Below are positions 54,371 to 55,447 of a stretch of 64,000 bases of DNA, piece by piece. The notes under the pieces were generated by a model. It was given only the letters and a program-made list of their open reading frames with translations, had not been told where the DNA came from and made no database searches. The translations under genes were made by a program, and so were the position numbers. Numbering within the stretch: the stretch's first letter is position 1; every line of letters starts with the position of its first letter. The stretch is from Haloarcula salinisoli (GTDB lineage: Archaea; Halobacteriota; Halobacteria; Halobacteriales; Haloarculaceae), in contig NZ_RKLQ01000001.1 of NCBI RefSeq assembly GCF_019599405.1, forward strand, positions 1,054,001 to 1,118,000, read 5' to 3'.

Positions 54371-54455
54371 GCGTGGGTAGCCAAGCCAGGCCAACGGCGC
54401 AGCGTTGAGGGCGCTGTCCCGTAGGGGTCCGCCGGTTCGAATCCGGTCCCACGCA
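54371..54455 (+). tRNA. tRNA-Leu (anticodon GAG)
   Basis: This 85-base class II tRNA folds with a GCGTGGG/CCCACGC acceptor stem, a D arm (GCCAAG...), an anticodon arm CAGCG-TTGAGGG-CGCTG giving anticodon GAG, and a long variable arm (TCCCGTAGGGGTC). A T arm GCCGG-TTCGAAT-CCGGT and discriminator A complete it. No intron is seen. CCA is not encoded. Its last 25 bases recur twice just downstream, showing this gene is an integration target. Confidence 0.93.
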
Positions 54456-54534
54456 TTTCTACTGAGCGCGAACGAAAGTGAGCGCTCTGTAAATCGAACG
54501 GACCGGTTCGAGCCCTGGCAGACGAGCGTAGCGA

Positions 54535-54567
54535 GTCTGCCTCCGGTTCGAATCCGGTCCCACGCAT
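54535..54567 (+). repeat. Copy 1 of tRNA-Leu 3' end (att-like)
   Basis: Bases 54543-54567 repeat the final 24 bases of the tRNA-Leu gene and one more. The preceding GTCTGCCT is shared with copy 2, making 33 identical bases. Such partial tRNA copies are left when elements integrate at the tRNA 3' end. The stretch between the tRNA and this copy contains an inverted repeat GGCAGAC...GTCTGCC but no gene. Confidence 0.7.
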
Positions 54568-54659
54568 ATTCTACCGCGAGCAAATCCGCGAGCGGTTGCT
54601 ATGTGCCGGGCGGATTCGAACCCTGGAAGTCGCAGCGGCCGAACGGAGTGAGGCCGACC

Positions 54660-54692
54660 GTCTGCCTCCGGTTCGAATCCGGTCCCACGCAT
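54660..54692 (+). repeat. Copy 2 of tRNA-Leu 3' end (att-like)
   Basis: This is identical over 33 bases to 54535-54567, 125 bases further on, and again ends CCCACGCAT. Between the copies lie a minus-oriented T-arm-like GGATTCGAACC and a short palindromic stretch, with no coding potential. Nested copies suggest more than one integration and loss at the site. Confidence 0.7.
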
Positions 54693-54941
54693 TGTGAACA
54701 GCCTCGTGTGTAGCCGCTCTCGTCTCGCTCTAATGTCACTCCTGATAATTGGACCAAAAGAAATTTTAATGAGGGGAGCCATTGATGCAACATGGCACCA
54801 TTCTGGTGCCACTACCCCCCACCCCCACCCCCACTTTCCGTACTTTTGACTGACGAGCGCGTAGCACGCGGAGCCCTGCATCAGTTCACTGCGCGCCGCC
54901 TAATCGGTGTCGAGGGAGGCGGGATTTCGTTATATCGTGAC

Positions 54942-55045
54942 CCGCTCCTCGGAAAATGGAAGGGGCGGGACCGAGCGAAACCGGAGGTTTCGCGAGGGTC
55001 GAGAGACGCCAGCGGCGTCTCTCGGGATTCGAACCGGAGGAAGAC
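54942..55045. repeat. 104-base perfect direct repeat, copy 1
   Basis: Bases 54942-55045 are identical to 55102-55205, a period of 160. The unit contains GAGAGACGCC-AGC-GGCGTCTCTC, a ten-base-pair hairpin (about 55000-55022), next to GGATTCGAACC, a T-arm-like motif read on the minus strand. A PCR or assembly artefact is unlikely as the 56-base spacer is unique. No protein is encoded. Confidence 0.9.
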
Positions 55046-55101
55046 TCACTTCGTTCGTCTTCCAGGGCTCGAATCCCTAATCGTCCATTTACTCGTCGCG
55101 T

Positions 55102-55205
55102 CCGCTCCTCGGAAAATGGAAGGGGCGGGACCGAGCGAAACCGGAGGTTTCGCGAGGGTCGAGAGACGCCAGCGGCGTCTCTCGGGATTCGAACCGGAGG
55201 AAGAC
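55102..55205. repeat. 104-base perfect direct repeat, copy 2
   Basis: This is an exact copy of 54942-55045. It is followed by GC-rich sequence with several short inverted repeats and TTCGAATCC motifs up to the tRNA-like sequence at 55345. The full absence of differences means the duplication is recent or kept identical by gene conversion. Between about 54693 and 55344 there is no supported gene. Confidence 0.9.
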
Positions 55206-55344
55206 GGTCGGCCTCGCTGCTCGCGGTTTCACCGCTCGCTTTCGAGGCGCTCCTATCGTCGCGCCTCGCATCGCTCGGCCGCTGCGACTTGCGTATTCGA
55301 ATCCCGCTGTATCCACTTGTGACTCACGTACGTTCGTGACAAAG

Positions 55345-55447
55345 TGGAAGGGGCGGGATTCGAACCACGCGGAGCCCTGCGAGGGAAACTACCAGGCCGT
55401 TTTCTGGCATTCTGGCCGGCAGCGCTCTACCACTGAGCCACCCTTCC
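55345..55447 (-). tRNA. Unusual tRNA-like sequence (pseudo-tRNA or intron-containing)
   Basis: On the minus strand GGAAGGG and CCCTTCC form a perfect seven-pair acceptor stem with discriminator A, a normal D arm (GCTC-AGTGGTAG-AGC), and a TTCGAAT T-loop. But the total is 103 bases. The T stem pairs only if one T is bulged (GCG-T-GG/CCCGC). CTGCC/GGTAG would give an anticodon stem closing a 24-base loop without the usual T33. It could contain an intron, or be a recombined and dead tRNA. The anticodon cannot be assigned. Confidence 0.45.

Follow-up and report, generated by a model that had tools for sequence, protein, structure and literature searches.

The region from 54371 to 55447 of the window (the whole stretch of 64,000 nucleotides of Haloarcula salinisoli DNA analysed here) contains two convergent arrays of non-coding hairpin cassettes, one on the plus strand behind tRNA-Leu(GAG) and the other on the minus strand behind a tRNA-like gene. 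The cassettes have a defined structure, are specific to the tRNA that they follow, occur broadly among haloarchaea and are cleanly present or absent at individual sites, and they appear to form a type of tRNA-anchored cassette system that has not been described before. We give an even chance to the reading that they are non-autonomous units that site-specific recombination adds to and removes from tRNA 3' ends; the enzyme, the direction of change and single-stranded DNA as the substrate are the parts of this reading that we infer.

Organization of the locus

The features of the locus, in positions of the window, are listed below.

54371-54455, plus strand: tRNA-Leu(GAG), the last 22 nt of which (54434-54455) are its tail
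54456-54566, plus strand: cassette 1 (111 nt), behind tRNA-Leu(GAG), with hairpin A at about 54463-54488, inverted tail at 54500-54514, hairpin B at about 54517-54541 and tail copy at 54545-54566
54567-54691, plus strand: cassette 2 (125 nt), directly after cassette 1, with hairpin A at about 54573-54596, inverted tail at about 54610-54622, hairpin B at about 54623-54669 and tail copy at 54670-54691
54743 to about 54850 (3' end approximate), plus strand: conserved small-RNA candidate, with a TGATAAT box at 54743-54749, a TATA-like stretch at about 54763-54770, a GGCACC-N5-GGTGCC hairpin from 54794 and a C-rich stretch
54942-55045, minus strand: 104-nt repeat, copy one
54957-55116, minus strand: second minus-strand unit (from the sequence and repeats), with A at about 55078-55116, inverted tail at about 55065-55077, B at about 55040-55063, T half at about 55024-55035, inserted palindromes at about 54970-55023 and acceptor half at 54957-54969
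55102-55205, minus strand: 104-nt repeat, copy two
55117-55344, minus strand: first minus-strand unit (from the sequence and repeats), with A at about 55309-55344, inverted tail at about 55296-55307, B at about 55206-55295, T half at about 55184-55195, two inserted palindromes at about 55130-55183 and acceptor half at 55117-55129
55345-55447, minus strand: tRNA-like gene, with tail at 55345-55366 and a long hairpin replacing the anticodon arm

The first-pass annotation of this DNA had reported that the tRNA-Leu 3' end recurs at 54543-54567 and 54668-54692, and our repeat analysis agrees with it, placing an exact 22-nt core of the tRNA-Leu(GAG) tail at 54432, 54543 and 54668, the latter two inside the reported copies. 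The 104-nt repeat is perfect, as had been claimed (the two copies are 100% identical, with a start-to-start distance of 160), but it had been grouped with the tRNA-Leu array and belongs instead to the array that follows the tRNA-like gene on the minus strand. Counted from that gene, the order in a unit is A, inverted tail, B, T half, two palindromes and acceptor half, and the 104-nt block comprises the T half, the palindromes, the acceptor half and the edges of B and A. The two tandem units have this block in common, whereas their B and A are different. Split tails like those of the minus-strand array are also found behind tRNA-Arg(CCT) and, in part, behind tRNA-Glu(CTC). Long inverted repeats connect the tRNA-Leu side of the locus with the minus-strand side because both are made of T-arm sequences and similar hairpins. 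Open frames run over the arrays (54278-54583, 54349-54567 and 54792-55322) and encode GTGFEP- or DSNRR-like peptides; they are probably spurious products of the T-arm sequences and hairpins.

The tRNA-like sequence at the end of the region, which had been noted as strange, is real, with 42.9 bits against RF00005 for the minus strand of 55345-55447, above the gathering score of 29 that serves as the cut-off of the tRNA model. It is more than an oddity of this locus: the gene is conserved, and 30 of the 32 genomes of the genus each have a single full-length match (three of them with short extra tail matches). In the family sample, 18 of 77 genomes and 5 of 22 genera had a match, several of these to the 3' part only, and at three further loci with the 3' part the 5' half is altered. 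Most of the 30 distinct sequences, whose extraction pattern itself requires the acceptor, D-arm and T-loop, have as their anticodon arm a longer hairpin with a varied loop size, followed by a variable hairpin. An ordinary tRNA was considered and rejected, the ARAGORN calls varying by species (Trp, Gly, Arg, Ser and Leu). Judging from the sequences, we read the gene as encoding a tRNA-like RNA that would not decode, with an odd intron as the alternative.

About 1 kb of the region had been described as free of genes, which does not hold, because it contains both the tRNA-like gene and the small-RNA candidate. The hairpin of the latter begins about 27 nt past the TATA-like stretch. With a looser pattern the candidate was found in 26 of 32 genomes and additionally in G022, so that both main branches of the genus have it, and it was also found at one locus of another genus (L270); in the genome of the window the pattern occurs once. 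In one branch the candidate and the tRNA-like gene lie together at a different chromosomal place. No Rfam family matched the candidate up to E 1. The annotation had set a conserved structured RNA locus against its own view of captured elements, and conserved structured-RNA candidates are in part what the locus holds.

Cassette anatomy and the level of pairing

The anatomy described here is based on 23 units from the window's genome and, from other haloarchaea, 98 distinct Leu units, the length of the latter being set by the search pattern (100-128). A cassette starts with a short sequence and hairpin A, followed by the inverted tail, hairpin B and the direct tail copy. The median tail-to-tail unit length is 113 (range 41-216, 188 spacings), and the units of the window's genome, with 44-216 bp, contain no gene and have no room for an integrase.

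The inverted tail is a regular component. In the Leu units the best inverted 10-mer match averages 8.6 of 10 positions, compared with 6.1 in shuffled units, and 61 of the 98 score 9 or 10. It also fits the unit's own tRNA: the mean local score in the 23 units was 11.8 versus 9.0 (sd 0.45) with permuted labels, a value as high as that observed being reached in none of 20,000 permutations, and the own tRNA ranked first or joint first in 14 of the 23.

The pattern N6-GARC-loop-GYGA-N6 of hairpin A is present in 85 of the 121 distinct units, and its stems differ in sequence yet stay paired (5.07 Watson-Crick pairs out of 6, versus 2.58 when the 3' arms were re-dealt). The hairpin core GARCGNAGYGAG occurs in 63 of the 121 units, 74 times in the sense orientation relative to the tRNA and never in antisense, and its GCGNAGC centre presumably resembles a DNA mini-hairpin of high stability. 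Genome-wide, GARCGNAGYGAG has 235 sites and its reversed control 68, many of the former lying away from tRNAs (for example L107 and L108). In single-stranded DNA folding, cassette 1 gave hairpin A and one long hairpin of inverted tail, B and tail (z -5.0, matched by 0 of 200 shuffles); for cassette 2 the fold was only weakly better than that of its shuffles (z -1.7, matched by 10 of 200). A hairpin type that ends in tRNA acceptor letters, GCAGGTGCAYTCCCTTGGGAYTGCACCCACGCA, is conserved behind tRNA-Leu(GAG) in many Haloarcula species (loci including L039, L041, L047 and L051) and is absent from the window.

In the stems of 136 cassette hairpins, selected by the motif and by pairing at three or more of five positions, 9 G.T and 16 A.C mispairs were counted, compared with 19 G.U and 3 A.C among 516 pairs in the acceptor and T stems of tRNAs from the same genome (Fisher p 0.0008). 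Since selection on RNA should favour G.U, its lack of preference in the hairpins points to pairing at the DNA level; the mispairs are few, and the statistics are moderate evidence for DNA-level over RNA-level pairing. This bears on the possibility that the arrays function as RNA, namely as structured 3' trailers of the tRNA transcript involved in termination or processing or giving rise to small RNAs. Such trailers would fit the constant position of the arrays downstream of the tRNA and in its direction, the strictly sense orientation of the motif in the 121 units and the stems that stay paired. We nevertheless lowered this explanation because wobble pairs are scarce, G.T being not favoured over A.C as it is in tRNA stems; moreover, arrays are missing from many tRNAs and from many orthologous sites, and the exact copy of the acceptor strand is left unexplained. 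We consider a role as RNA trailers unlikely.

Distribution and turnover at tRNA sites

In the Haloarcula genome of the window, the last 22 nt of each tRNA were compared with the 700 bp on both sides at a cut-off of at least 18 of 22 nt, and a copy of the tRNA's own tail was found downstream of 17 of the 43 tRNAs and upstream of none. Tails of other tRNAs reached 18 of 22 downstream in 52 of 1804 comparisons, because tRNA tails resemble each other. For tRNAs from the same phylum outside the order, own-tail copies were found at 0 of 32 on either side, which, together with the contrast between downstream and upstream, argues that the copies are not due to chance. In a distant haloarchaeal genome, a copy was present behind only 3 of 30 tRNA predictions (one of the 30 doubtful), and tRNA-Asp of the window's genome is followed by four tail copies in a row. 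A search of the genome collection yielded 98 stretches with paired Leu tails 78-106 bases apart, belonging to many haloarchaeal genera; the titles of the 80 matches listed are all names that we take to be haloarchaeal, except 'uncultured archaeon A07HR67'. Among the matches listed in an order-wide pattern search, neighbouring tails occurred in several families, with spacings of, for example, 96 bp in G042, 105 in G173 and 121 in G118. Copies of the acceptor half only, preceded by another palindrome type, were observed at tRNA-Ala(GGC), Gly(CCC) and Arg(GCG) (L081, L090 and L091).

Comparison of the same locus across relatives, as the annotation had suggested, revealed varied content. At tRNA-Leu(GAG), 12 Haloarcula species have an empty site with the same kind of flank directly behind the tRNA, and three have a filled site, in which one of two cassettes (a 129-bp cassette in G001 and G007, and a different one of 109 bp in G012) lies between the tRNA and the common flank, with a few base changes at the G012 junction. 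In a tree built from 1.4 kb of upstream DNA of 18 labelled genomes, six of which have a cassette (three of these in a branch with another flank), the cassette states need at least three changes, and both gain and loss fit. At tRNA-Leu(TAG), two cassettes are present in G001 and only the second in G007, and G003 and G030 join A and B halves that are found in separate cassettes of G014, the tail copy of G030 being degraded. At least one copy follows tRNA-Asp at 22 of the 30 loci returned; the number ranges from 0 to 4, and the first spacer varies between species and is drawn from a small repertoire. An A module of 28 nt is the same, base for base, at eight Leu loci that carry six genus names (Haloarcula, Salinarchaeum, Halorubrum at three loci, Halobonum, Halorussus and Halorhabdus). 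In 51 arrays with at least two copies, in which some of the weak matches counted are probably inverted tails, the tRNA-proximal copy was better preserved in 26, the most distant one in 8, and the two were tied in 17 (p 0.003).

Neutral DNA dynamics in these polyploid haloarchaea are an alternative that needs neither a dedicated enzyme nor a function, the palindromes behind tRNAs being multiplied, corrected and deleted through gene conversion, template switching and recombination between short repeats. Quasi-palindrome correction alone could suffice to keep the stems paired despite sequence change, the hairpin pairing appears to be at the DNA level, tandem copies of whole units exist (L269), and Haloquadratum has deletions bounded by short direct repeats (PMC3119063). 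Local copying fails, however, to explain the identical 28-nt module at eight loci under six genus names, the lack of any upstream copy at the 43 tRNAs, and two different cassettes at one empty site; we regard the neutral explanation as rather doubtful.

Larger insertions also occur at these tRNA 3' ends. At the neighbouring tRNA-Leu(TAG), four relatives carry 1.35 to 13.7 kb between tail copies. In the 5.8-kb element of G027, a 364-aa frame adjoining the tRNA matches PF00589 (E 5e-14); the insertion of G020 measures 1.35 kb between tail copies, and those of G008 (13.7 kb) and G003 (2.5 kb) start with nearly identical sequence. The left end of the G003 insertion lies behind the tail copy of a cassette and not behind the tRNA's own tail, and the insertion runs into a cassette remainder but is otherwise without inverted tail and hairpin B. 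By locus, the insertions of 2.5, 13.7 and 5.8 kb (L040, L045 and L063) have nearly one left end, with the integrase confirmed in L063 only. A longer tRNA piece is present at the far ends of the G008 and G020 insertions and at the XerCD-side site of halovirus HSTV-2, and inverted tail and hairpin B are absent from the G008, G020 and G027 elements and from the HSTV-2 site. Cassettes and larger elements have a common site and a different design.

The suggestion of the annotation that small elements were captured at tRNA sites therefore stands in part. The cleanly filled and empty sites, the variable copy number across the genus and the insertions of the four relatives agree with it, but the small units do not look like random decay of ordinary elements, one architecture being found behind 17 of 43 tRNAs and the ends of the larger insertions differing from cassette ends. 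If the cassettes were what remains of ordinary integrated elements after loss of their middle, their location would be expected, since tRNA genes are common archaeal attachment sites (PMC8371274). Independent deletions should not, however, yield one architecture behind 17 tRNAs, the larger insertions of G008 and G020 and the HSTV-2 site have a longer tRNA piece and, like the G027 element, no inverted tail or hairpin B, and among the integrase elements seen none has ends that equal hairpin A and the inverted tail with B. This origin is very unlikely. Another possibility, that the copies are decoy attachment sites kept for drawing incoming integrases off the tRNA, would fit the left end of the G003 insertion; in addition, at least one integrase element here uses the tails as its attachment site, and in HSTV-2 they lie beside XerCD. 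The G003 insertion is a single case, which a later insertion of a cassette between the tRNA and the element would mimic, and decoys leave the inverted tail and the hairpins unexplained; we find a decoy function quite improbable.

Recombination model and relation to known systems

For cassette gain and loss by site-specific recombination, we propose that a trans-acting recombinase, most likely one of the tyrosine type with the T-arm as the core, would join the tail of a cassette to the tail of the tRNA. The joining would put the cassette directly behind the tRNA, restore an intact tRNA end and shift older cassettes outward. The recognised form may be the long hairpin of inverted tail, B and tail, perhaps as single-stranded DNA in the manner of integron attC, and recombination between tail copies or between inverted tails would lead to deletion or reshuffling of cassettes. 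Integron attC sites recombine in folded form.

This recombination reading draws on the restriction of own-tail copies to the downstream side and the specificity of the inverted tail for its own tRNA, on the empty and filled sites, the swaps of A and B halves and the 0 to 4 copies at tRNA-Asp, and on the shared 28-nt module, the better-preserved tRNA-proximal copies and the few wobble pairs. The larger elements, likewise bounded by tRNA 3' ends and in one case with a PF00589 integrase, also favour it. Counted against it are the lack of a recombinase beside the arrays of this genome, of gene cassettes among the spacings examined and of cassettes in viruses or plasmids with the queries used, the dispersed hairpin motif, the 3 of 30 tRNAs in the distant genome, the z of -1.7 for cassette 2, and the tree, which fits both gain and loss.

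The searches behind these points were as follows. None of the seven PF00589 matches in the window's genome is beside an array-bearing tRNA, and the match closest to any listed tRNA is about 6 kb off. A scan for gene-bearing cassettes, which required exact Leu tails at both ends within 9 kb and whose scope the G003 and G008 insertions fall outside, found none among the three longer tail-to-tail spacings reported. A regular-expression scan for integrase-like frames near the tails of 110 loci found none, but it also missed the Pfam-confirmed integrase of G027 and therefore carries little weight. Two patterns of cassette modules gave 0 matches to virus contigs, plasmid queries gave no cassette match, and the weak phage matches, which were either tails beside XerCD or a Gordonia phage, included no cassette.

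Among known systems, elements of archaeal tyrosine recombinases, for example of the SNJ2 type, share with the cassettes the insertion behind an intact tRNA, the 3'-end repeat and the clean empty site. Of the features that define tRNA-integrated elements, the cassettes show a tRNA 3'-end repeat in direct orientation at each border and an empty site in relatives, but no integrase, that of G027 residing in a separate larger element. Unlike such elements, the cassettes are about 110 bp long, gene-less and stacked, have an inverted tail and two hairpins, and follow 17 of 43 tRNAs. Integrons resemble the arrays in the fixed anchor, the imperfect long hairpin with co-varying arms, the apparently DNA-level pairing and the better preservation of cassettes near the anchor (the attC features being taken from general knowledge), whereas here no gene was seen in the cassettes, no IntI was identified, the anchors are many per genome and the cassettes have 22-nt identity to the tRNA. 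REP/BIME palindromes and MITEs are likewise short, non-coding palindromic units, and the hairpin motif is likewise dispersed in the genome, but the cassettes are tied to the 3' side of tRNAs, and their direct and inverted tails are specific to the tRNA. Casposons (some of which use tRNA 3' ends) and CRISPR arrays have in common with the present arrays the polarised order beside an anchor and the duplicated target; the cassette spacers differ in being hairpins common to several species.

Partial tRNAs next to full ones have been treated as remnants or prophage ends in haloarchaea (PMC7921747 and PMC3119063), and partial tRNA duplications of 22 and 43 bp in Haloquadratum were tied by the authors to prophage integration (PMC3119063); the excerpts of both papers describe no cassette architecture. 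Titles and abstract openings from the open-access literature searched likewise contained no description of such arrays.

A wider extension of the model, which we put forward tentatively and hold to be doubtful, is by analogy a class-wide haloarchaeal system working on folded single-stranded DNA in the manner of integron attC, in which a shared recombinase would use the hairpin of inverted tail, B and tail as its substrate, and move gene-less hairpin cassettes with each tRNA 3' end as an anchor; the requirement that a functional tRNA be restored would keep the identity of the tails in check.

If cassette recombination is true, the stretch behind many haloarchaeal tRNAs would be a zone of recombination with a DNA-hairpin grammar of its own, and archaea would offer a testable equivalent of integron or attachment-site arrays. 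The arrays would provide fast strain markers and would explain some of the 'partial tRNAs' that are annotated as remnants, and the tRNA-like gene and the small-RNA candidate would be further RNAs beside the arrays.
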